DNA from: a virus
Reading direction: 5' to 3' (one strand)
Virus record (IMG/VR): IMGVR_UViG_3300035564_000046
Coordinates: 1-49,964 of that record
DNA: 49,964 nucleotides
In this document: positions 2,142 to 42,662 of the stretch, in pieces
Position numbering within the stretch: position 1 is the stretch's first letter
Layout: every line of letters starts with the position of its first letter
Made by a program: the position numbers and the translations under genes
The notes under the pieces: generated by a model
What the model saw: only the letters and a program-made list of their open reading frames with translations
The model's database searches: none
Told to the model about the DNA's origin: nothing

Positions 2142-3740
2142 CTATTTGAACTGGACGCCAAGGCTCTTTAGGGCGTCTTCGAGTACTCCCGGTTTCAGTG
2201 AGGGAGAGGCCAGTCCCTTACCGTACCCCTTCATTTTCAAGGCCGCGTTCAGAGCGTTGATTCCCTGTTCAGGAGGAATGCCTAGGCTGTTGAGCGCCTG
2301 GGAGATCATGTTCTTCCCGACCACGGAGTCTGGCTGACCCCAACCAGGAGTTGTAGGATTCTTGAACAAAGCCTGTCCCTGTTTGAGAGTATCTATGACT
2401 GCGTTGAGAGGAGGCGCGGCCTTGGCCTTGATCCCCAGCCCATTCAAGGCCGTGGCTAGTTTGTTGGGTTCGAGGTCTTTGGAGAAGATTCCTTTCTCCC
2501 AGCCCCACTTTTTCAGGTTTTCGGAAAGCTTGCTGTAAACCTCCATTGGATTTCCATGTGCGTCCAGAACGTCAAGTACGTCACCCATCGGGGTCTCGGT
2601 TTTGCTCTTTGCGACGTTCAATAGCTGCTCGGCAAGTAGTTGGTGCGGCGTCTTCGTTGCAGGTTGTCCACTAAACCCACCGCTCGCCCAGAACTCGCTT
2701 ACAGCTTGAGCGTCCTTCGCCGCTTGGGCTTTCTTCGCCGCCAGGTATGGTGAAGAGGCCAACTTCTTATAGGCCGACCCAGAGGGAACCGGGGGCAGTC
2801 CTGGAGACTTGGTATTCACAACCCCAGCCGTAGTTTGCGGCGTGATAATCCCCTTGTCGAGCATCACGGACTTCCCAAGCTTCCTCAGGTTCCTGTCAAG
2901 CAGCACGGCCTGGGTTGGAGCGAGTTTGCCCGTGCGATCCCTACCTAACGCGACAATCGAGTCGTACCCGGAGCGTTCAGCCAGGGTGCTTGCGAGTGCT
3001 TCCTGTACAACAGTGAGAGGAGAATGCGATTGTGCCGCCGCTTTAATCTCTTTGGGCGAGAGATACTTGCGGATGGTTGGGTGGGACATCCATTGGTCAA
3101 TTCTTTCCCCCGGATTGTTCATGATTTTAAGGTTGCGCAGCGAGTTCACCAGATCCCGCCCACCAAGCGCCTGTAGCGCATCGTTTGCGATGTACTCAGA
3201 CCCGCGCGTAAGCCGCAGCGTTGTCTCTGGCTTCCACCCCAATCGTGCTGGATACGCGCCTCCCTCAATATGCCAATTTGGATTCCATGCTGATGGTTCT
3301 GAGTGGTAATACCCCTTGTACTCCTCCTCCCCTGGCCGATTGACCGAGGCAAACAACCCCTTCCGCCCACCACGAGTGACCGGAACGGGAGTATCTTCGG
3401 CCTGAAACCGGGTGACATTCAGGTTCCGCTCCAGCCCCAGAAGGTCCTTCATTTTCGCCTGGAGTCTCGGCGACATCTTCGACCAGCGCATTGGGGAGGA
3501 TTCAAGAACAGGCCCCAGCTCAGGGTCGTCTTCCCTGGGACCGAACGCCTGCGTCTTGGCGGACTCATATGCTCCGATCAGTCCTCCGGGGATTGCCCCG
3601 ACGGGACCCGACATCACCCCACCAGTCGCGGCGCCAGCCATGGCGTCTCGAATCAGATCCTCAAGCCGAATCCACTGAGACCGCGAACGGGTATCGGGGA
3701 GAATTTGGGCCTCGGGTGAAATGTACTGGGGCTCGGGCAT
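2142..3740 (-). CDS. Large virion-associated protein, possible polyvalent-protein domain
   Basis: A 532-residue protein starting right after the stop of the 61-aa gene. Residues about 33-55 are Gly/Ala-rich (AGAATGGVMSGPVGAIPGG), like N-termini of internal head or ejection proteins. Residues about 120-290 include an ETTLRLTRG strand and a later GYDSIV/AVLLD pair, which resembles the layout of ADP-ribosyltransferase-like domains in phage polyvalent proteins, but no HGT motif is visible. Residues 310-530 are helical, with short repeats around LNALG/LNGLG and a 'KSLGVQF' end. Probably packaged or ejected with DNA; enzymatic activity is speculative. Confidence 0.7.
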   Translation of the reverse strand: MPEPQYISPEAQILPDTRSRSQWIRLEDLIRDAMAGAATGGVMSGPVGAIPGGLIGAYESAKTQAFGPREDDPELGPVLESSPMRWSKMSPRLQAKMKDLLGLERNLNVTRFQAEDTPVPVTRGGRKGLFASVNRPGEEEYKGYYHSEPSAWNPNWHIEGGAYPARLGWKPETTLRLTRGSEYIANDALQALGGRDLVNSLRNLKIMNNPGERIDQWMSHPTIRKYLSPKEIKAAAQSHSPLTVVQEALASTLAERSGYDSIVALGRDRTGKLAPTQAVLLDRNLRKLGKSVMLDKGIITPQTTAGVVNTKSPGLPPVPSGSAYKKLASSPYLAAKKAQAAKDAQAVSEFWASGGFSGQPATKTPHQLLAEQLLNVAKSKTETPMGDVLDVLDAHGNPMEVYSKLSENLKKWGWEKGIFSKDLEPNKLATALNGLGIKAKAAPPLNAVIDTLKQGQALFKNPTTPGWGQPDSVVGKNMISQALNSLGIPPEQGINALNAALKMKGYGKGLASPSLKPGVLEDALKSLGVQFK

Positions 3741-3926: not shown

Positions 3927-3983
3927 AGGACCCTCCTATTCACAGAATGTCTACTTCCATGATACTATCCGCAAACCAGACGC

Positions 3984-4014
3984 AAAAAGGGCTCCCAGGT
4001 TGCCCCAGGAGCCC
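3984..4014 (-). terminator. Rho-independent terminator after decoration gene
   Basis: On the minus strand GGGCTCC and GGAGCCC form a 7-bp stem (4014-4008 with 3995-3989) followed directly by five T residues (3988-3984). It lies 26 bases past the stop of the 4040-4519 gene and ends the capsid transcript. Confidence 0.8.
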
Positions 4015-4039
4015 AGTTGCTACCGACCCAACAACCGCG

Positions 4040-4519
4040 TTACGCGGTGGCGGTTGTCCAAGCGTAAGGCTTGAAGTGGACCTGCACCGCAGCGTCGGTT
4101 CCAACGGTGCCGTTGGAGCCCGCGATTGCCAGGGCGCAGACCACGAGGTTGCCCTTTGCCAGCACGCAGGAGCCGTCCGTCTTCAGCACGGCCTGGGTGA
4201 TCCCAGTGCCCGTGTTGTAGGTAGAAGGCGCCCCGGCACCCGTCGCCGTGGAGATGAACGACGGATTGGTTGTGCAGAGCGCGGTTGCCGTCCCTGCCGC
4301 CACGACCTTGCTCACGGTTGCAGTCAAGGTGCGGTCAGTCGAGGTTGTCATCGTGCGGGTGGCCAGGAAGACCCCGGTGACCTCGCCCGCCTCAGGGGCG
4401 ACAAACACAGTCACGTTGGTTGCCGTGGTGTGGTTGCCGTTCTGAGCGTAGACGAAGACCCGTTCGGCGTCTGTGTTACCGATGGCGTCGTTGCTAAGGA
4501 AGAGTCTCTTGCTTGCCAT
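4040..4519 (-). CDS. Head decoration-like protein
   Basis: A 159-residue Thr/Ala/Val-rich, beta-rich protein without signal peptide (begins MASKRLFLSNDA). It sits 15 bases after the major capsid gene with its own AAGGAG site and is closed by a strong terminator, so it is co-transcribed with the capsid protein. Abundant Thr and Ala and lack of long helices fit a capsid decoration or stabilising protein, but this is inferred from position and composition; no specific family recognised. Confidence 0.65.
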   Translation of the reverse strand: MASKRLFLSNDAIGNTDAERVFVYAQNGNHTTATNVTVFVAPEAGEVTGVFLATRTMTTSTDRTLTATVSKVVAAGTATALCTTNPSFISTATGAGAPSTYNTGTGITQAVLKTDGSCVLAKGNLVVCALAIAGSNGTVGTDAAVQVHFKPYAWTTATA

Positions 4520-4534
4520 TGTCTTGCTCCTTTC

Positions 4535-5533
4535 CTACGCCACGACCGAGCTTGGCGCGTCGATGGTCTTGTAGCGGTAGGTCCCACCGATCCCAGTCGG
4601 GCCTTCCAGCACGACGGTTGTGAAGACGTAGTTGTAGGAGACGGCCCCACCAATCACACCTTCGGGATCGACGATGCTCTTTCCGCCACGGATTGTGGTG
4701 ATGTTGAACCGCTGCGACTTCGGATCAGTGATCCGCTGCGGTCCCTTGCCCGACAGATCGACCGAGCCGACGCCGCCCTTGCCGAAGATGTAGCAGCGCC
4801 ACTTGTTCGGCGAACCAGCGGTCAGACAGACGTTCGTGGATTCGATGATCTTGCATCCGCCGACCTCGGCCAGTTGGCCGCGATCTTCCGGCTTGATCGC
4901 CTCGGATGGGACCCGCGTGTACTTCTGAAGGTCCATCAGGCCATTCGCCGATGGGTCGTTCAGCAGATCGAAGGCCACGTAGGGGTGAATCACGGCCAGG
5001 AAGTAGCCGTCGTCCATGGGCTCCACGTCCAGGCCAGTCAGCCGGGCGCGGGCGTTGCGGAAGTCGGCTGCCTTGAGGTAGGATCCTGTCAGAGCGAGAT
5101 CGGTGGAGGCGTACTCCGCGTCGATCACAGTCCGAACCAGGGTGTCCACGCTCAGACCGGCCTGATAGCCCAGAAGCTCTGCCGCGTTCTGCAGGATCGG
5201 ATCCAGCGCGGTGTCGAGCAGGAAGTCGGAGACGTTGATGAAGTTGGTGTACTGTCCCACCGTCGCGGAGACTGTCCGAGACGAGATGGAAACAGGTGTG
5301 CCCACGCCACCTTCCGGCGCCTTCTGCGTTGTCATTTCCGACAGGTTGTTGTAGCGGTAGAACTGGACTGTGCGGCCAGATTGACGCTCCAGCATGTCGG
5401 GGGTCGTTGCCTTATGGAAGTGGAATTTCTTCATAAGGCGGTCAAGCCCTTTCTTGCGGTACACAACCGCCGCCAAGTGCGGCAGGTTGGACGCCGATGT
5501 TCGCATCCCCTCGGGGACGGGAGAATAGGCCAT
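4535..5533 (-). CDS. Major capsid protein, N4-gp56 type
   Basis: A 332-residue protein. The order of features fits the N4 gp56 capsid family: an N-terminal helix with basic residues (KKGLDRLMKKFHFHK), GRTVQFYRYNNLSE, a PEGGVGTP segment, QYTNFINVSDF, then a mid-chain helix, a 'VIHPYVAFDL' strand, GGCKIIEST and a C-terminal beta region. The gene has its own promoter (5626-5596) placed after a strong terminator and a leader of about 55 nt with AAGGAGGG before the ATG. This allows high independent expression, as expected for the main shell protein. Confidence 0.88.
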   Translation of the reverse strand: MAYSPVPEGMRTSASNLPHLAAVVYRKKGLDRLMKKFHFHKATTPDMLERQSGRTVQFYRYNNLSEMTTQKAPEGGVGTPVSISSRTVSATVGQYTNFINVSDFLLDTALDPILQNAAELLGYQAGLSVDTLVRTVIDAEYASTDLALTGSYLKAADFRNARARLTGLDVEPMDDGYFLAVIHPYVAFDLLNDPSANGLMDLQKYTRVPSEAIKPEDRGQLAEVGGCKIIESTNVCLTAGSPNKWRCYIFGKGGVGSVDLSGKGPQRITDPKSQRFNITTIRGGKSIVDPEGVIGGAVSYNYVFTTVVLEGPTGIGGTYRYKTIDAPSSVVA

Positions 5534-5595
5534 GATCCCTCCTTGCGTTCAATTGTTCGTCAACGGGGACCAGTACTCCAGTACCCGTCACCCTC

Positions 5596-5626
5596 AGCGT
5601 ACCACAAATGTCGTAGCTCGTGTCAA
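5596..5626 (-). promoter_or_regulatory. Major capsid gene promoter
   Basis: Minus strand TTGACA (5626-5621) and TACGCT (5601-5596) with a 19-bp spacer. It starts 4 bases after the T tract of the upstream terminator and drives the capsid gene alone. The spacer is longer than ideal, so activator help is possible. Confidence 0.6.
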
Positions 5627-5629
5627 GAC

Positions 5630-5662
5630 AAAAAAGAGGGAGGGACAATCCTGGTCCCTCCC
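5630..5662 (-). terminator. Strong rho-independent terminator after scaffold gene
   Basis: Minus-strand stem GGGAGGGAC / GTCCCTCCC (9 bp, 7-nt loop) followed by CT and six T (5635-5630). It separates the terminase-portal-scaffold transcript from the capsid transcript. Confidence 0.9.
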
Positions 5663-5682
5663 GGCTTCAATGAAGGCGGCGG

Positions 5683-6474
5683 TCAGTAGATGTTCACACC
5701 CTGAGCTTCGGCCTTGCGGATGATTGCTTCGAGCTGCTCCACGGGGAGGCTCTCGGCAATCTCCATGATGTCCGGGCCGGGGCTCTGTGTGCGGCCACTG
5801 ACGCGAGGTGGGGCTAATGGAGGGGCGTAAGGCGAGGTATCCCGGTAGGCGCCGCCCTCCTCGGGCTGGGCCAGTTCCAGCATGTTGCGGTGCTTGGCGA
5901 CGGCGAATGCGTTCTCCAGCCCATCAGAGTCCAACCTTAGGTTCATCCCCTGCATCACGGCCATGATCGCCTGGCGGTTCTGGTCGGTGCCGAGGAATTC
6001 GGGGTGCTGCATGTTGAACTCGCGTACTGCCATTTGGGCCTCCAACTGCTGTTGTTTCAGCGCCATGGCGTTGAGCGCTGCAGGCAGGTTGTCCACCCCG
6101 TAGCGAGCCTTTTCCACCAGGGCCATCGCCTCGGCGGGGTTCTTCTGCATCTTGGCGATGAACTCGTTGAGGTCCACTTTGGGCGCCTCGTTCATCTGCT
6201 GAGCAGTAACCTGTTGGCCGGGCCGCTGGGCAGCCTGCGCGAGAAGCTCCTCGCGCTGCCGCGCTTGGATTGCTTCGTACTCCGATAGAGCCGCCTGCAG
6301 CTCCTCAACGGTCTTGAAAGCCCGGTCCTGGCCCCCAATCTTGAGTGTCACCGTTGCCTCGGGTTGAGCCGCTTGAGTGCCCGCTTGCGCGGCGGCGGCG
6401 TCGATGATTTGCTGTTCCACGCTCCGGGTGTCGGCGGCTGGCGCCTGCCCCGGCGTAACTGCTGCTGTTGCCAT
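5683..6474 (-). CDS. Head scaffolding-like protein
   Basis: A 263-residue acidic, Ala/Gln/Glu-rich protein between portal and capsid genes. An N-terminal disordered Ala-rich stretch is followed by 'TLKIGGQDRAFKTVEEL' and helices with long Q/E runs (about 60-165), then a Pro-rich linker and a short C-terminal helix. This composition and the position directly before the capsid gene are typical for scaffold proteins that guide procapsid assembly. No protease domain is visible, so the scaffold would be released intact or cut by another enzyme. Confidence 0.75.
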   Translation of the reverse strand: MATAAVTPGQAPAADTRSVEQQIIDAAAAQAGTQAAQPEATVTLKIGGQDRAFKTVEELQAALSEYEAIQARQREELLAQAAQRPGQQVTAQQMNEAPKVDLNEFIAKMQKNPAEAMALVEKARYGVDNLPAALNAMALKQQQLEAQMAVREFNMQHPEFLGTDQNRQAIMAVMQGMNLRLDSDGLENAFAVAKHRNMLELAQPEEGGAYRDTSPYAPPLAPPRVSGRTQSPGPDIMEIAESLPVEQLEAIIRKAEAQGVNIY

Positions 6475-24038: not shown

Positions 24039-24265
24039 CACTCTCGTCAAGTATCGCGGCCACGTTAGTTACCACGGCCATGTTATCCCCACCTATTCCC
24101 TCCCCGAGAATTTTCTCCCCAATTTTTTCCAGCCTCTCAAACTCTGCACGAAGCAGCGGCGGGGCCGCTGCTTGGGGAAATTGGTACCAAAGTACTAGTA
24201 CCAAGGGTCTGGTACCCCCGTACCAGTACCAAGGAACCTTCTGGGCCAGTACTACGGGTACGTGA
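24035..24265 (+). CDS. Doubtful Ser/Pro/Tyr-rich reading frame
   Basis: ATGA overlap with the previous stop and 76 codons, but the product is low-complexity (Ser/Pro at the start, Tyr/Gln/Thr/Gly at the end) and its last third runs through the GTAC-rich repeat region. Base use differs from neighbouring genes. It may be a real terminal gene of the membrane cluster, or just open sequence over a control region. Confidence 0.3.
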   Translation: MTLSSSIAATLVTTAMLSPPIPSPRIFSPIFSSLSNSARSSGGAAAWGNWYQSTSTKGLVPPYQYQGTFWASTTGT

Positions 24266-24270
24266 GTACT
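24181..24270. repeat. Cluster of GTAC palindromes
   Basis: Nine GTAC tetramers in about 86 bp, many within larger palindromes: TTGGTACCAA (24181-24190), AGTACT (24191-24196), GGTACC (24211-24216), AGTACT (24248-24253; 24265-24270). AGTACCAAGG is directly repeated at 24197 and 24225. It looks like a multi-site protein-binding region or a set of alternative hairpins. Confidence 0.6.
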
Positions 24271-24621
24271 ATTTCGGATAAACAGGTATTAACCTAATGA
24301 ACTGCACTACACCACATCTAGCATTGCAGACAATCGTATCTGAATGTAATAGACAATGCAATAGCAGAGCATTACGTCTTAATAGCCAACATAGACGCAC
24401 AGAATAGACGGCTTTGTAATGCAAAGCGCTTTACCCTACAAACCGCGCTATCACACTACGCTCTACTAGTCAACCCGTATTACCTATCTAAAGAGATGTT
24501 AAATGTTGGGGAGAGAGAGGGTAGCACCGCGCTAGCCTCTTGTTATCCTACCCCATAAGCGCATAGGATAGATATAGCGGGCGGATGCCTGCTAGAGACG
24601 ATTGAACGCTTGAAAGGATGA
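24271..24621. other. AT-richer gene-free control region
   Basis: About 350 bp without a convincing gene and clearly richer in A and T than the rest. It contains the palindrome AAAGCGCTTT (24423-24432), repeated ATAGACG/AATAGAC motifs (about 24390-24412), and the inverted repeat TATCCTA (24544-24550) / TAGGATA (24564-24570) close to the first gene of the amidoligase island. Together with the GTAC cluster it is a candidate replication origin or control region for the island. Confidence 0.5.
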
Positions 24622-24630
24622 GTGTATTGT

Positions 24631-24819
24631 ATGACGTACAGACTTGACTGTCTCCTCCGTGAATGGGGGGTCGACTGGATTAACGTGGCGGTCCATGCTA
24701 CGGCCGCCGAGTGTTTTGAGGACTGGCGAAGTAATCACTTGGATCAGTCCGCAAGAATCACGGGCGTGGGAATAGCGAAGACGCTATACCTTGTAGCTTG
24801 GTGCGATGAAAGGAGCTAG
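24631..24819 (+). CDS. Small protein at head of amidoligase island (62 aa)
   Basis: A 62-residue soluble protein (MTYRLDCLLREWGVDWINVA) with two Cys. The start is uncertain: AAAGGA is 12 nt before the ATG at 24631 and 3 nt before an in-frame GTG at 24622. The stop is 4 bases before the amidoligase start, so it is probably in the same operon. It contains more low-GC and CTA-type codons than phage genes to the left. Function unknown; a regulator or substrate carrier of the island is conceivable. Confidence 0.55.
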   Translation: MTYRLDCLLREWGVDWINVAVHATAAECFEDWRSNHLDQSARITGVGIAKTLYLVAWCDERS

Positions 24820-24823
24820 ACCC

Positions 24824-26086
24824 ATGCCACAAAACGAGACTACCCCTGCACCGTTCTACCGTGTGGAGCAGCGCACGGGGGCGCGCCCGGATAACTGGAG
24901 AATCCTGGAGCACTACGAGCATCTAGAATCGTGGGAGGACGCGGAAGATGCATTTAGGCGCTCGACATGGTACGGTGCGCTCAACCTGCGTCTCGCCTAC
25001 TCGGAGGATGATAGTGTGTGGCGCCCGTGCTGTGCCTGTGGTGCGGAATGGGTCCAGGTTCGCACAGCCTCCGGTTTGCCCGCAACGTATGATTACGAAC
25101 AGCCGTCCTCACGCCACGTTGTCTGTGAGGATTGTTCCGGGTGTGTTGAGTATTGCTCCTTCTGTGGGGTGCTATTCAACACGAATGACCATACGGAATG
25201 CCCTGAATGCTCGGAGCACGAATGCGCGGACTGCGGCTGCTCCTACTCCCGCTTGGAGCATGGCTGCTGCCCAACGTGCGCCGAAAGGGAGGAGGAGGAG
25301 AGAGCGGAGGAGGAGGACCGCTCACACCGCTTGATTGGAGGCTATCACGATACTCGGCCACCATGGCGTGCGGTTGGCAAGGGCCCCATGTTTTTCGGGC
25401 TGGAAGTAGAGACAGAGTCAGACGACCGGCAAGCACTAGCCCAGCTAGTGCTAGATTATGTCGGCTCGGAACGTGTGATCCTGGAGCGCGACGGTTCGCT
25501 TAGGGACGGGGAAGGGCTAGAGATTATCTCTCACCCCCATAGCTGGGAAAGGGCAGGGGATTACGTTCATCGGCTCTGCTGTGCTCTCACTGAAGGAAAG
25601 GCCCGGAGTTATGACACGGAGGGGCGCGCGGGGATTCATGTCCATGTCACGCGTAATCAGATCTCTCAGCTTACCATCGGTAAGCTCTTGGTGCATGTGC
25701 ATGACCCGGCTAACGCGAGCCTGATTGATTGCATAGCGCAACGTCCGGCTAACGGCTACTGTGATCGGCCGCCAAAAAAGATCACAGACGCACGGAGGAC
25801 GTGCTATGCGCGTGAGGCTATCAATCTGTCTGAATACCAGACGATTGAATTCAGACTCTACCGTGGTAACACGCGTGAGGCGCGCATCATGAAGTGCCTG
25901 GAGCACGTCAAGAGCCTGCTAGACTGGCTTCCTACAGCGTCCATGCGGCAATTGGACGCGCCCAGCTATCTAGCATGGATTGACAAGCGGCGTTCTCAGT
26001 ATCCGCACTTGGCACAATTCCTAGTTGCGCGTGGAAGACTCCAGCAGCTTTCAACCCGCACGGCAGACAGCACGGGGGACAATTAA
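24824..26086 (+). CDS. Zinc-finger amidoligase (GCS-like ligase)
   Basis: A 420-residue protein. An in-frame ATG at 24806 exists, but it forms part of the AAAGGAG ribosome site, so I start at 24824. Residues 69-152 hold 16 Cys in CxxC-type groups (CEDC, CSFC, CPEC, CADC, CPTC), likely several zinc knuckles. The catalytic part shows FGLEVETE (191-198), RDGSL (222-226), GLEIISHP (231-238), GRAGIHVHVTR (267-277) and TIEFRLYRG (340-348), matching the Amidoligase_2 / gamma-glutamylcysteine-synthetase-like fold that joins a carboxylate to an amine with ATP. It is followed by a class II amidotransferase. The substrate is unknown. Confidence 0.8.
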   Translation: MPQNETTPAPFYRVEQRTGARPDNWRILEHYEHLESWEDAEDAFRRSTWYGALNLRLAYSEDDSVWRPCCACGAEWVQVRTASGLPATYDYEQPSSRHVVCEDCSGCVEYCSFCGVLFNTNDHTECPECSEHECADCGCSYSRLEHGCCPTCAEREEEERAEEEDRSHRLIGGYHDTRPPWRAVGKGPMFFGLEVETESDDRQALAQLVLDYVGSERVILERDGSLRDGEGLEIISHPHSWERAGDYVHRLCCALTEGKARSYDTEGRAGIHVHVTRNQISQLTIGKLLVHVHDPANASLIDCIAQRPANGYCDRPPKKITDARRTCYAREAINLSEYQTIEFRLYRGNTREARIMKCLEHVKSLLDWLPTASMRQLDAPSYLAWIDKRRSQYPHLAQFLVARGRLQQLSTRTADSTGDN

Positions 26087-26088
26087 CC

Positions 26089-26907
26089 ATGTGCTTACTA
26101 CTTGTCTCGACAAACGGCGCGCGCCTGGAGCGTTTTGAAGTGGAAACGGCGTTTCAGGCTAACCCGCACGGATGGGGTGTGGTGATGCAGGGTGGGGAGT
26201 GTCGCAAGGGGTTTAAGCTCGACGCTCTACACCGTGCGCTAGACGCGGCGGAAGGAAAGCCCTACATGGCGCACTGGCGCTACGCTACACACGGAGAGCT
26301 CACGGTTGGCAATTGCCACCCGTTCCGCGTGGCTGACAATCTGTGGCTTGCCCACAATGGCATTATCGATGGGGCCAAGTGCGAGATTCAACCTGGTATG
26401 AGTGACTCGCGTAGCTTGGCTCTAATGATGCGCGGCCTAGGCTACCTCGTGCTGTGGCAAGTGGAACTTGCCGCATGGGAATCTTACATCGGCTCATCTA
26501 ACAAGGTGGCTTGGTTCGACTCCGAAACGGGTGAGGCTCGGATAGCTCATGAGACGCAGGGCCATTGGGTCAAGCCCGGCTTGTGGGCGTCCAATCACGG
26601 CTATATGGGCTATGTTTCCTCATCGGATGACCTAGAACCGTGGCCTAGCGAATTTTGGCGCGCTAGACAATACGCCAGCAAGTACAGGCCCGCGTCTTCG
26701 CCTGTTAGCTACAGTTGGGATTCTTACGACGGTGAAGACAGCGCCATGGGGGACGACTTGGAAAGATGGGCAGCTAAGCGCGCCGCTCAGGATCAAACCG
26801 CTAGCTGCCAGTGTTGCCTACTGCCCGTACCAGTGCCGGAGTTAACGATGCTCGACGGACAATCGGTCTGCCGTGATTGTCGGGAGTACTTCGGCGCGGT
26901 CTGCTAG
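26089..26907 (+). CDS. Class II glutamine amidotransferase-like protein
   Basis: A 272-residue protein beginning Met-Cys, so Cys2 would become the N-terminal nucleophile after Met removal. It has the Ntn glutaminase pattern 'HGWGVVM', 'HWRYATHG' (62-69), 'NCHPF' (75-79) and 'LAHNGII' (88-93). The C-terminus ends in a zinc-ribbon-like CQCC...CRDC segment, echoing the Cys-rich part of the ligase. It starts two bases after the ligase stop. It could release ammonia from glutamine or cleave gamma-glutamyl bonds in concert with the ligase; the pairing of these two families is a known association in phages and bacteria. Confidence 0.82.
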   Translation: MCLLLVSTNGARLERFEVETAFQANPHGWGVVMQGGECRKGFKLDALHRALDAAEGKPYMAHWRYATHGELTVGNCHPFRVADNLWLAHNGIIDGAKCEIQPGMSDSRSLALMMRGLGYLVLWQVELAAWESYIGSSNKVAWFDSETGEARIAHETQGHWVKPGLWASNHGYMGYVSSSDDLEPWPSEFWRARQYASKYRPASSPVSYSWDSYDGEDSAMGDDLERWAAKRAAQDQTASCQCCLLPVPVPELTMLDGQSVCRDCREYFGAVC

Positions 26908-26921
26908 CTGTCACGGTGTTG

Positions 26922-26931
26922 TCACGCGTGA
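26922..26931. promoter_or_regulatory. Perfect 10-bp palindrome, possible operator
   Basis: TCACGCGTGA in the 71-base gap between the amidotransferase and the next gene. A direct repeat TGTCACG also occurs here (about 26909 and 26920). Could be a regulator site for the downstream gene. Confidence 0.35.
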
Positions 26932-26978
26932 TGCGGTACAGTTGGGTAGTTCAATTTGATAGACGAAAGGATAGGAGA

Positions 26979-27287
26979 ATGGCTGAGAGAACGATGATGG
27001 AAAACGGCGTAGAGTATCGCTATTACTTCGCGCCACCCAAAACCCGCACGGATGAGCGCTTGTTTCTGGCTCACCGTGCAATCACTGATGTAGTCGAGCA
27101 TCTTCGTGCGATTGCCACGGAGTCTGAGATCGTCCTGGACGCGCCGAAGGTCGCTCAGCGAGCATTGGCGGCGGTAGGTGTGGCTGAACTGGAGACGCTG
27201 CAACGGCGCATCTACGATTGCTATACAGACTTCGGGCTGACGGAATGGCCGCGCGTCTGTGGGATGGATGGCTACTGTCCGGGCTAA
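26979..27287 (+). CDS. Hypothetical island protein (102 aa)
   Basis: A 102-residue helical protein (HRAITDVVEHLRAIATESEI; VAELETLQRRIYDCYTDFGL). The longer open frame reaches upstream to 26877, but AAAGGA sits 7 nt before the ATG at 26979. It is followed by a terminator, so it ends the amidoligase operon. No family recognised. Confidence 0.6.
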   Translation: MAERTMMENGVEYRYYFAPPKTRTDERLFLAHRAITDVVEHLRAIATESEIVLDAPKVAQRALAAVGVAELETLQRRIYDCYTDFGLTEWPRVCGMDGYCPG

Positions 27288-27300
27288 GCGGCCGCCCTGC

Positions 27301-27394
27301 TGCCGTCTGACGGCACGCCACTAACAACTAGGCTCACGCGCCTACAGTCTTGTCTTAGTGCCTAGCATTAGGACTGGATTGTAGGCGCTTTTTT
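27301..27394 (+). terminator. Rho-independent terminator of amidoligase operon
   Basis: GCGCCTACA (27338-27346) pairs with TGTAGGCGC (27380-27388), followed by six T (27389-27394). A small perfect hairpin TGCCGTC/GACGGCA (27301-27315) lies just upstream after the stop. The loop of the main stem is 33 nt and contains inner complementary bits (CAGTC/GACTG). Confidence 0.75.
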
Positions 27395-27516
27395 ATGTCT
27401 GCCCTTTCCAGCGCGGGGTGGTGCGCGCCAGCACCCGCACGCTAGGGATACGCGCGTCGTCGGCTTACGGGCCGGGCGCCTGGAAGCAAGACATACATGG
27501 ATGGTATGAGCTATCG

Positions 27517-27594
27517 ACTGGTGGCTAACTGGTGGCGTGCTGCTGGTGGCGGCACGACTGGTGGTAGAGATTTGGGATAGGTTCAACTGGTGGT
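27517..27594 (+). repeat. Five direct ACTGGTGG repeats
   Basis: ACTGGTGGC at 27517 and 27528, GCTGGTGGC at about 27542, ACTGGTGGT at 27557 and 27586. Spacings of 11, 14, 15 and 29 bp are near one to three helical turns, as in iterons or repressor arrays. They lie in the gap upstream of the 27629 gene. Confidence 0.5.
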
Positions 27595-27628
27595 GAAAGA
27601 ATGGAGACAGTATGAAAGGAGCAATAGT

Positions 27629-27967
27629 ATGGGGAAGCTGAGCGCAAGCTCTCAAGCGAGAATCCAGCGGTTTGTGGACTGGTTCATTAGGACTGAATAC
27701 GCCGCAAACTGGGCGGCTGAGAAAGACAGCGACTTTATCAACGAGCGCGCGCGCGCCGAGCGGTGCTATGCTGCGGCTGAGCATGGCGGGTGTGGCCGGA
27801 CGCACGCGGAGGTTATCGAGGACTGGAGGGAGGCGTTTCATGCTTGGATGAGCGATAGAGGCTGTTTCGTGTGGCCCGAGCGATTTGAGGCCGCAGTATG
27901 CGCCCACTTTGATGGGGTAGAAGCCTGGCACGAGCGGCACGGTTCGCTTGATTGTGAGCTTGGATAG
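27629..27967 (+). CDS. Hypothetical protein (112 aa) after iteron-like repeats
   Basis: A 112-residue helical protein rich in Trp and His (WLEAF-type segments such as 'VIEDWREAFHAWMSDRGCFV'). The ATG at 27629 has AAAGGAG seven nt upstream; an earlier in-frame start lies before this site. It has the same base and codon bias as the island genes. No motif recognised; its position just after direct repeats makes a DNA-linked role possible. Confidence 0.6.
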   Translation: MGKLSASSQARIQRFVDWFIRTEYAANWAAEKDSDFINERARAERCYAAAEHGGCGRTHAEVIEDWREAFHAWMSDRGCFVWPERFEAAVCAHFDGVEAWHERHGSLDCELG

Positions 27968-40841: not shown

Positions 40842-40918
40842 AGCGGGGTGGAGCAGTCCGGTAGCTCGTCTGCCTCATAAGCAGAAGGTCGTCGGTTCAA
40901 ATCCGACCCCCGCCACCA
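40842..40918 (+). tRNA. tRNA-Met (CAT), initiator-like
   Basis: 77 nt including CCA; anticodon CAT at 40876-40878. Body very close to bacterial initiator tRNA: first base A cannot pair with C72 (1:72 mismatch), A11-U24 in the D stem, and a GGTAGCTCGTC D region. The anticodon stem lacks the GGG/CCC triple. Confidence 0.9.
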
Positions 40919-40923
40919 AGTTT

Positions 40924-41000
40924 GGCCTCGTAGCAGAATGGCATATGCGGCTGGCTCAAAACCAGTAATCCTGTAGGTTCGACTCCTACCGAGGCCACCA
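40924..41000 (+). tRNA. tRNA-Leu (CAA) with short variable loop
   Basis: 77 nt with CCA; anticodon CAA at 40957-40959 in loop CTCAAAA. Variable loop has only about 6 nt, unlike the long arm of bacterial tRNA-Leu. A73 discriminator is kept. Confidence 0.8.
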
Positions 41001-41003
41001 AAG

Positions 41004-41080
41004 ATTGACCGATGCCCGAAAGGGTCTCCTATGAAGATCGCGCGTGGAGGGCCAGGGAATCAACTGCGCTATCGGTCAAT
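41004..41080 (+). ncRNA. tRNA-sized structured RNA between tRNAs
   Basis: 77 nt closed by a perfect 10-bp stem ATTGACCGAT (41004-41013) / ATCGGTCAAT (41071-41080). Inside: CCC-GAAA-GGG tetraloop hairpin (41015-41024) and CTCC (41026-41029) / GGAG (41046-41049). No T-loop or anticodon arm. GGTTTTT follows directly, as in a terminator. Confidence 0.5.
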
Positions 41081-41087
41081 GGTTTTT

Positions 41088-41171
41088 GCCGGGCTGGTGA
41101 AATGGCAGACACGGTAGTCTTAGGAACTACTGTCGAAAGGCGTGGGGGTTCAAGTCCCTCGCCCGGCACCA
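41088..41171 (+). tRNA. tRNA-Leu (TAG)
   Basis: 84 nt with CCA and a long variable arm; anticodon TAG at 41121-41123 in loop CTTAGGA; GGTTCAAGTCC T arm. Confidence 0.9.
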
Positions 41172-41174
41172 CAT

Positions 41175-41250
41175 TCCCAGGTAGCTCAACTGGTAGAGCG
41201 CTTGACTGTTAATCAAGTCGTTGCTGGTTCGAGTCCAGCCTTGGGAGCCA
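41175..41250 (+). tRNA. tRNA-Asn (GTT)
   Basis: 76 nt with GCCA end; anticodon GTT at 41208-41210 in loop CTGTTAA; acceptor TCCCAGG / CTTGGGA. Confidence 0.92.
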
Positions 41251-41251
41251 C

Positions 41252-41325
41252 GGGGGTCTAGTTCAGTGGGAGAACGGCGGTCTCCAAAACCGCTCGCGGA
41301 GGTTCGATTCCTTCGGCCCTTGCCA
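41252..41325 (+). tRNA. tRNA-Trp (CCA)
   Basis: 74 nt; anticodon CCA at 41284-41286 in loop CTCCAAA; G73. The first two acceptor pairs are G-U wobbles. Confidence 0.9.
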
Positions 41326-41366
41326 CGGGGGTGAAAACGCAGCGCAGTGTGAGTAGCCTCCACCAC

Positions 41367-41441
41367 TTCCCGGTCGTTCAATTGGTAGGACACTGGGCTT
41401 TGATCCCAGGAATCTTGGTTCGAGTCCAGGCTGGGGAGCCA
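41367..41441 (+). tRNA. tRNA-Gln (TTG)
   Basis: 75 nt; acceptor TTCCCGG / CTGGGGA with G-U pairs, anticodon TTG at 41400-41402 in loop CTTTGAT, G73. The 41-nt spacer before it (41326-41366) holds no feature I can name. Confidence 0.88.
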
Positions 41442-41450
41442 AATAGAATT

Positions 41451-41536
41451 GGAAGGTACGGGCTGAATGGTCGGCCACCAGTCTTGAAAACTGGCGCTCC
41501 GTAAGGATGGGGGTTCGATTCCTCTGCCTTCCTCCA
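41451..41536 (+). tRNA. tRNA-Ser (TGA)
   Basis: 86 nt with long variable arm; anticodon TGA at 41485-41487 in loop CTTGAAA; acceptor GGAAGG / CCTTCC. Confidence 0.9.
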
Positions 41537-41556
41537 AGAAACGGTTGTAGAAGTTT

Positions 41557-41631
41557 GGGGTCGTAGCTCAATGGGAGAGCGGTTGCCCTGCAAGCAACGG
41601 GTTGAGAGTTCAAGTCTCTCCGATTCCACCA
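41557..41631 (+). tRNA. tRNA-Ala (TGC) with C33
   Basis: 75 nt; anticodon TGC at 41589-41591 in loop CCTGCAA, so position 33 is C instead of the near-universal U. The alanine identity pair G3-U70 is present. Confidence 0.85.
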
Positions 41632-41635
41632 AATT

Positions 41636-41711
41636 GGTGATGTAGCTTAACTGATAGAGCACCTGACTGTCGCTCAGGGTAGTGTGGGTTTGACTCCCAT
41701 CGTCACCGCCA
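41636..41711 (+). tRNA. tRNA-Asp (GTC) with altered elbow
   Basis: 76 nt; anticodon GTC at 41669-41671 in loop CTGTCGC. D loop ACTGATA has A at position 19 and the T loop TTTGACT has U at 56, a paired change of the G19-C56 elbow contact. G73. Confidence 0.88.
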
Positions 41712-41718
41712 AGTTCGT

Positions 41719-41795
41719 CTGGGTGTAGCGCAGTCTGGTAGCGCACCTGCCTTGGGAGCAGGGGGCCGCTGGTTCGAATCCAGCCGCCCAGACCA
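41719..41795 (+). tRNA. tRNA-Pro (TGG)
   Basis: 77 nt; acceptor CTGGGTG / CGCCCAG, anticodon TGG at 41753-41755 in loop CTTGGGA, A73. Confidence 0.9.
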
Positions 41796-41801
41796 AAGTT
41801 C

Positions 41802-41877
41802 GCCGCAGTAGCTCAGTTGGCAGAGCGGCAGTTTTGTAAACTGCATGTCGAGGGTTCGATGCCTTCCTGCGGCTCCA
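41802..41877 (+). tRNA. tRNA-Thr (TGT)
   Basis: 76 nt; anticodon TGT at 41835-41837 in loop TTTGTAA; acceptor GCCGCAG / CTGCGGC. Confidence 0.92.
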
Positions 41878-41880
41878 TTT

Positions 41881-41977
41881 GTGGTCCCGTAGCATACGCC
41901 ACAGAGGTTCGGGCCAAGGACGGGATAGAGCCCGGCGCCGTGAGGGCGGTTCAACGCGGGATGAGTCGCCCTCACCA
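41881..41977 (+). ncRNA. Possible structured RNA between tRNA-Thr and tRNA-Gly
   Basis: A 105-nt spacer that lacks a normal tRNA but holds a 9-bp hairpin GTGAGGGCG (41940-41948) / CGCCCTCAC (41967-41975) and smaller pairings (TCCCG with CGGGA; CGGGC with GCCCG). It ends in CACCA, like a tRNA 3' end, but no acceptor partner exists. Could be a degenerate tRNA or a small RNA. Confidence 0.3.
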
Positions 41978-41982
41978 ATTTT

Positions 41983-42056
41983 GCGAGAGTAGCTCAACGG
42001 CAGAGCCCTGGTCTTCCAAACCAGCCATGAGGGTTCGATTCCCTCCTTTCGCTCCA
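41983..42056 (+). tRNA. tRNA-Gly (TCC)
   Basis: 74 nt; anticodon TCC at 42015-42017 in loop CTTCCAA; acceptor GCGAGAG / CTTTCGC with wobble; U73. Confidence 0.9.
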
Positions 42057-42060
42057 AGAT

Positions 42061-42153
42061 CGGACTGTAGCTCAGACGCCAGAGAGTGCCCGGTATGGTC
42101 CGGGGGGTCGCTTGGTGGGCCGTAAGGCAGCCGCATCCAAGCCAGTCCGACCA
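42061..42153 (+). ncRNA. tRNA-like RNA with rebuilt T arm
   Basis: 93 nt with a perfect acceptor CGGACTG (42061-42067) / CAGTCCG (42143-42149) and ACCA. A CTC/GAG D-like arm and a CCCGG-TATGGT-CCGGG hairpin (6-nt loop) follow. The T-arm position has GCTTGG / CCAAGC, but its loop is 21 nt and lacks TTCRA; the D loop lacks GG. No anticodon can be assigned safely. Confidence 0.55.
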
Positions 42154-42155
42154 GT

Positions 42156-42331
42156 TTCCTTGTCCGAAGTGGTGAGACACTTGAATCGAGGTATGGAGAG
42201 CCCGTAGAGCGGACATCTCGGGAGCGAAGCATACGATCCGTTTCGACCATGACCCGGTGGGACGGCTATAAAACGAGGCGTTGTTGCACGCCTATCCATA
42301 CTGGAGTAGGTTCAAATCCTGCGACAAGGAA
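42156..42331 (+). ncRNA. Large tRNA-like RNA with insertion in anticodon arm
   Basis: 176 nt. Acceptor TTCCTTGTC (42156-42164) / GACAAGGAA (42323-42331); D-like hairpin AAGTG / CACTT (42167-42182); anticodon-like stem GTATGGA (42191-42197) / TCCATAC (42295-42301) that encloses 97 nt; T arm GTAGG-TTCAAAT-CCTGC (42306-42322). The insert holds a hairpin AGGCGT / ACGCCT (42276-42293). CCA is not encoded. The layout resembles tmRNA or an interrupted tRNA. Confidence 0.6.
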
Positions 42332-42338
42332 TAGTTCT

Positions 42339-42412
42339 AGCACGATGGCCGAGCGGCGAGGCGTGGGTCTGCAAAACCTACCACAAGGGTTCAACTCCCT
42401 TTCGTGCTTCCA
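42339..42412 (+). tRNA. tRNA-Cys (GCA)
   Basis: 74 nt; acceptor AGCACGA / TCGTGCT, anticodon GCA at 42371-42373 in loop CTGCAAA, U73 (a cysteine identity base) and CCA. Confidence 0.9.
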
Positions 42413-42418
42413 GTTTAT

Positions 42419-42560
42419 GCCAGCAGGACCATGGACGGTGACGTGGAGAGCGTATGTGGTGCGGGTAGAGGGGCGCGGAGCACTCGACGCAGAGCCGCGC
42501 AAACCAGGGATGTTCCTGGCTTCCCCGAGCACTCAGCGGGTTCGACTCCCGCCTGCTGGC
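42419..42560 (+). ncRNA. Large tRNA-like RNA with expanded body
   Basis: 142 nt. Acceptor GCCAGCAG (42419-42426) / CTGCTGGC (42553-42560); D-like CCA/TGG arm with GG in the loop; hairpin GCGCGG / CCGCGC (42473-42500); hairpin CCAGG / CCTGG (42504-42519); perfect T arm GCGGG-TTCGACT-CCCGC (42536-42552). CCA not encoded. Likely an interrupted class II tRNA or a novel small RNA. Confidence 0.6.
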
Positions 42561-42569
42561 TTCGAGTTC

Positions 42570-42662
42570 GGGCGAGTGTAGTCGAGTGGCGAAGACCACG
42601 GCCTGTAAAGCCGTCACCCCCTGTGGGAAACAACGGAGGTTCAAATCCTTCCTCGCCCACCA
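42570..42662 (+). tRNA. tRNA-Tyr (GTA)
   Basis: 93 nt with long variable arm; anticodon GTA at 42605-42607 in loop CTGTAAA; acceptor GGGCGAG / CTCGCCC; ACCA. Last tRNA of the array. Confidence 0.92.

Follow-up and report, generated by a model that had tools for sequence, protein, structure and literature searches.

A divergent phage amidoligase and class II amidotransferase gene pair as a candidate glutamine-dependent amide-forming system

The tailed phage recorded as IMG/VR virus IMGVR_UViG_3300035564_000046 carries an amidoligase gene followed immediately by the gene of a class II glutamine amidotransferase. That the two enzymes act together is supported by their sequences, their predicted structures and the strictness with which the genes are paired. 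With somewhat more confidence than doubt, we interpret them as two halves of one system of the phage Amidoligase_2/GAT-II kind, which would form an amide at the expense of glutamine. The pair is a divergent member of this known, widespread and biochemically uncharacterised two-gene kind. New here are a count of how often the two genes are paired, the sets of catalytic residues that do not vary, the zinc-type modules that recur in variable form on each partner, and the occurrence of the pair on plasmids and in integrase-linked elements.

The window, meaning the whole stretch of 49,964 nt that was analysed, has genes for a terminase and connector/portal proteins on the minus strand; DNA polymerase I, a Sak4-like protein and a metallophosphoesterase are encoded in its rightward arm. 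The island containing the pair lies in the same arm (Table 1). A search of the annotated phage collection, including one at the DNA level, yielded no close relative of the phage, and single-protein scans of viral contigs found none either. The rightward arm also holds 14 tRNA genes at 40842-42662 (Met, Leu x2, Asn, Trp, Gln, Ser, Ala, Asp, Pro, Thr, Gly, Cys and Tyr), which were the only Rfam matches in the window. Two long open reading frames on opposite strands, at 2142-3740 (minus) and 3947-5689 (plus), had no PHROG match. When the five island proteins were submitted to PADLOC, no defence model was matched, and a known anti-phage defence system was thereby ruled out.

Table 1. Coordinates of the features in and around the amidoligase-amidotransferase island (window numbering).
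Feature	Position	Strand	Details
Non-coding gap 5' of the island	24040-24620		No ORF of note; GTAC-rich direct and inverted repeats
Small ORF, 62 aa	24631-24819	+	GAAAGGA ribosome site; low GC3; no family match
Amidoligase, 420 aa	24824-26086	+	Cys array at about 69-152; predicted glutamine-synthetase-fold catalytic domain at about 185-410
Class II (Ntn) glutamine amidotransferase, 272 aa	26089-26907	+	Cys2 nucleophile; C-terminal C4 motif
Small ORF, 102 aa	26979-27287	+	GAAAGGA ribosome site; no convincing family match
Intrinsic terminator	27338-27394	+	51-nt hairpin at 27338-27388, then T6
Orphan ORF, 112 aa, 3' of the terminator	27629-27967	+	GC3 0.664; GAAAGGA at 27614

The architecture of the island largely agreed with an earlier note made from the letters alone. 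The note had placed the amidotransferase, with its N-terminal Cys, two bases after the amidoligase, between two small unknown proteins. The open reading frames have this arrangement, and neither flanking frame showed a convincing family match or a homologue in about 247 related loci. The terminator said to close the unit was recovered by direct folding (-37.7 kcal/mol, z -7.1, with 0 of 200 shuffles as low). A terminator scanner had overlooked it because its loop rule misfits the long imperfect stem. A base use unlike that of the neighbours was likewise confirmed, since GC3 was 0.62-0.66 in five genes (24631-27967) and 0.69-0.83 in the 23 other genes measured; the stretch of odd composition thus extends past the terminator to include one gene more. 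The repeated AAAGGAG-type ribosome site held for four of these five genes in the form GAAAGGA and failed for the amidotransferase, which has GGGGGA. Given a gap of 2 nt between the ligase stop and its ATG, with no strong ribosome site of its own, the amidotransferase is probably translated by coupling to the ligase. The gap upstream of the island contains GTAC-rich direct repeats at 24182-24271, in three copies 14 nt apart, together with inverted repeats; its DNA fold has a z of -2.5, and it may be an operator or regulatory region.

Identification of the ligase drew on several profiles. The Pfam model Amidoligase_2 (PF12224) scored 18.0 bits (E 0.0028) on the window protein, below the curated cut-off of 22, and matched 60 of 64 ligase relatives at E<=0.01 (best 3.2e-34). 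PHROG amidoligase families also matched, with E-values down to 1.6e-9, and a leave-one-out profile built from 63 relatives, from which the window protein was excluded, detected it at E 1.5e-42. Across 64 amidoligases nine residues (E194, E196, D223, E233, G270, H272, R307, E342 and R344) never vary, and the window protein has them all; the catalytic residues of the glutamine-synthetase-like fold, in the motifs GxExE, D..E, GxHxH and ExR, are constant throughout these sequences and present in the window protein. In their pattern the invariant residues resemble those that serve metal, ATP and glutamate in glutamine synthetase. The AlphaFold2 model had a mean pLDDT of 79.6, with most blocks of the catalytic domain above 90. 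Foldseek searches matched it to glutamine synthetase, YbdK (1tt4), PafA and Dop in the PDB, with E-values down to 8.5e-5, and to phage amidoligases in a viral library, with E-values down to 1.5e-19. Whole-chain TM to the PDB structures was about 0.3, a figure that includes the poorly modelled N-terminus. A glutamine-synthetase-like fold is thus predicted for the ligase, which forms a long, poorly supported branch in the tree of amidoligases. Its predicted fold and its acidic, His and Arg catalytic pattern are common to PafA/Dop and glutamine synthetase, whereas identity to those enzymes is about 12-14%; membership of a pupylation system is not claimed.

The amidotransferase was assigned in the same way. 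GATase_6 scored 23.4 bits, below its cut-off of 27, and a leave-one-out profile of relatives detected the window protein at E 2.1e-34. For the family profile, the hit to the glutaminase domain of GlmS had an E-value of 2.6e-10, and that to EgtC was weak. In structure comparison the predicted model found GlmS first and EgtC second, with whole-chain TM values to the PDB of 0.4-0.5. The window protein has the class II hallmarks, namely Cys after Met, an Arg/Asp glutamine pocket and a His-Asn-Gly oxyanion motif, and C2, R64, T67, G69, N75, H77, N90, G91 and D106 are among the residues invariant in 69 amidotransferases. It shares the N-terminal Cys, Arg, His-Asn-Gly, Asp and fold with GlmS and EgtC. 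Unlike GlmS it is a stand-alone domain that lacks the sugar isomerase domain and ends in a C4 motif. Loss of the catalytic residues in relatives had been named beforehand as a result that would speak against a functional system; the opposite was seen, in 64 ligases as in 69 amidotransferases.

The likeness to EgtC makes a hydrolytic role for the amidotransferase possible. The ligase might then add a gamma-glutamyl group, or an amine to glutamate, which the EgtC-like Ntn hydrolase would later cleave, giving a reversible or protecting modification. Besides the structural match, this scheme is consistent with phage C75C1, whose amidotransferase (L008 4001-4897, annotated as a cyclotransferase only) is fused to a gamma-glutamyl cyclotransferase (GGCT) domain (PF06094, 2.7e-21) and so links the wider family to gamma-glutamyl amides, and with the GGCT proteins found near an amidoligase in LUZ24-like and Arthrobacter phages. 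However, GlmS-type transferases match better than EgtC, C75C1 was the only one of the related loci compared to have a GGCT homologue, and a remover would be dispensable in some copies, yet the pairing is complete. We therefore regard such a make-and-remove cycle as unlikely. The claim of an amidoligase/amidotransferase system is supported as to the identity of the enzymes and their joint action, while its alternative, removal of a modification, fits less well than ammonia supply.

Further evidence for joint action came from genome context, examined together with profile searches as the earlier note had suggested. Viral contigs were scanned by DNA pattern for the amidotransferase motif alone (THG-x5-NCHPF), which returned at least 120 loci. 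A ligase lay 5' on the same strand in 111 of these with a first profile and in 115 with a better one. Wherever a listed viral locus extends more than 121 nt beyond the 5' end of the amidotransferase gene, as 115 do, a ligase gene comes first on that strand; in the other five the sequence ends 0-121 nt 5' of the amidotransferase, so that none is a true exception. Among bacterial-genome loci with the same motif, a ligase was found in 23 of 119, and several of these 23 are from Nocardia. The paired loci formed at least 80 clusters at 80% identity; among the matches listed, 71 of 80 clusters have the two frames touching, overlapping or separated by no more than 50 nt. Judged from the sequences of these relatives, chance is excluded as the source of the pairing.

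Both genes also travel together outside phages. Two mycobacterial plasmids carry the pair (L249 4911-6609 and L250 4854-6526), and an integrase gene is nearby in two loci whose neighbours were profiled, one from Nocardia (L134) and one from Spirochaetia (L230). The plasmid amidotransferases are labelled 'glucosamine 6-phosphate synthetase', which is probably a misannotation. Tandem double amidoligase-amidotransferase pairs occur in six Nocardia genome loci (L134, L155, L160, L179, L217 and L232). Such movement among elements, and an island with a base composition of its own, could be read as mere descent of a gene cassette, in which two functionally unrelated enzymes have stayed neighbours. 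Against this, the roughly 80 clusters listed share complete pairing and a fixed order at roughly 20-30% identity to the window, and phage genomes shuffle quickly, which makes cassette descent as the sole cause very improbable.

Both proteins carry Cys motifs, as had been noticed in the description of a Cys-rich ligase and a zinc-ribbon-like amidotransferase end. Twelve Cys in the ligase N-terminus (69, 72, 101, 104, 111, 114, 126, 129, 134, 137, 149 and 152), enough for three C4 sites, and four in the amidotransferase C-terminus (240, 243, 261 and 264, kept in relatives that have this tail) align with Cys in most relatives. The window ligase had no Pfam zinc-domain match; LIM matched 2 of 64 ligase relatives (best 3.8e-7). 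The N-terminal region of the window ligase was missed by a profile built from the corresponding regions of its relatives, so that only pattern and position point to homologous arrays. Cys-rich N-termini were present in 41 of 64 ligases, with about six changes on the tree, and since the arrays are absent from many paired relatives they are dispensable for the basic reaction. Their distribution in the sequences marks them as a common but variable add-on outside the core. Linked occurrence of zinc motifs in both proteins (Fisher p 0.019 across clusters) was set aside, as the phylogeny leaves too few independent contrasts. A speculative extension, unlikely to hold in full, is that the zinc arrays on both proteins might aim the pair at one host protein or nucleic acid. 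This would make it a phage-encoded, glutamine-fed machine that amidates macromolecules, PafA/Dop-like in fold and not in substrate, and spread through phages, plasmids and integrase-linked elements.

Phage pairs of this kind have been described from Iyer et al. 2009 onwards. The closest known pairs are those of phiEco32, mycobacteriophage Marvin and the Methylophilales phages MEP401 and MEP402, in which the same two families are adjacent with the ligase first; the ligases of Marvin, MEP402 and MW202733 have N-terminal Cys motifs as well. The window pair differs from this kind in its identity of about 18-33%, its deep branch and the length and spacing of its Cys array. In the LUZ24-like phages UFV-P2 and tf, Amidoligase_2 and the amidotransferase belong to an early operon and are separated there by an HNH gene; the operon also encodes a COOH-NH2 ligase, an ATP-grasp enzyme and a GGCT protein (PMC3890496). 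The window island was found to have none of these four. Passages in PMC10580990 and PMC11318856 describe the phage genes and cite two predictions: in one, credited to Iyer et al. 2009, the phiEco32 genes would act on the cell wall and exclude superinfecting phages; in the other, credited to the Marvin paper, the role would concern a metabolite. The available passages on these genes contain no experiment on the substrate of a phage pair, in line with the earlier note, which treated the pairing as known but the substrates as not.

Neighbouring genes were compared for hints of the acceptor. Among the matches listed, 27 of 80 clusters have a WhiB-type gene close by in the same orientation, which points to actinobacterial hosts for many relatives and not necessarily for the window phage; a simple pattern search gave no convincing WhiB-type gene in the window. 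In 17 of the 80 clusters listed, a terminase-like ORF is found in the opposite orientation no more than 5 kb away, as is expected close to where late and early arms diverge. Profiles of ten neighbour clusters showed no other amide-chemistry enzyme that recurs.

The ligase and amidotransferase families of MurT/GatD are unrelated to those of the window pair. The system itself works like the proposed one, two genes providing glutamine-dependent amidation of a glutamate carboxylate, and it amidates peptidoglycan glutamate (PMC3267633). This precedent, the prediction of Iyer et al. and the WhiB genes beside many relatives are compatible with a pair that amidates or aminoacylates a peptidoglycan or envelope precursor for superinfection exclusion, as proposed for phiEco32. 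This reading concerns the choice of acceptor, and it can be reconciled with the amide-forming explanation. It is nonetheless somewhat unlikely in our estimate, as the citing passages (PMC10580990, PMC11318856) offer a prediction in place of experimental results, no enzyme of membrane, transport or cell-wall function recurs among the neighbours compared, and phages of very different hosts have the pair. We consider it distinctly unlikely that the product of the pair is an amidated metabolite, or an amidated form of a modified nucleotide, that serves the phage. Enzymes of the glutamine synthetase fold do often use small molecules, as does gamma-glutamylmethylamide synthetase, and in MEP402 the genes for DNA primase, helicase and polymerase follow the pair after a short run of other genes; but except for one weak DUF1599 match no nucleotide-modification gene recurs among the neighbours compared, and the window island closes with its own terminator.

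In the favoured glutamine-dependent amide-forming system, Cys2 of the amidotransferase would hydrolyse glutamine and release ammonia, while the ligase would use Mg-ATP to convert a glutamate-like carboxylate into an acyl phosphate. We infer that the ammonia would pass between the enzymes and that the reaction would run towards the amide, through attack of ammonia on the acyl phosphate. The genes would be expressed early, and the acceptor is probably a protein, peptide or cell-wall precursor of the host that is modified at an early stage of infection. As for the zinc modules, their likely role would be to join the two enzymes or to bind that acceptor. Ligases without the amidotransferase are found in a Microcoleus phage and a C. 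difficile phage, so another amine donor is possible there. With its catalytic residues kept, the pair is widespread in environmental phages, in at least 80 distinct clusters, and because complete pairing was measured from the motif of one partner, a two-component system is a firm prediction for this family.
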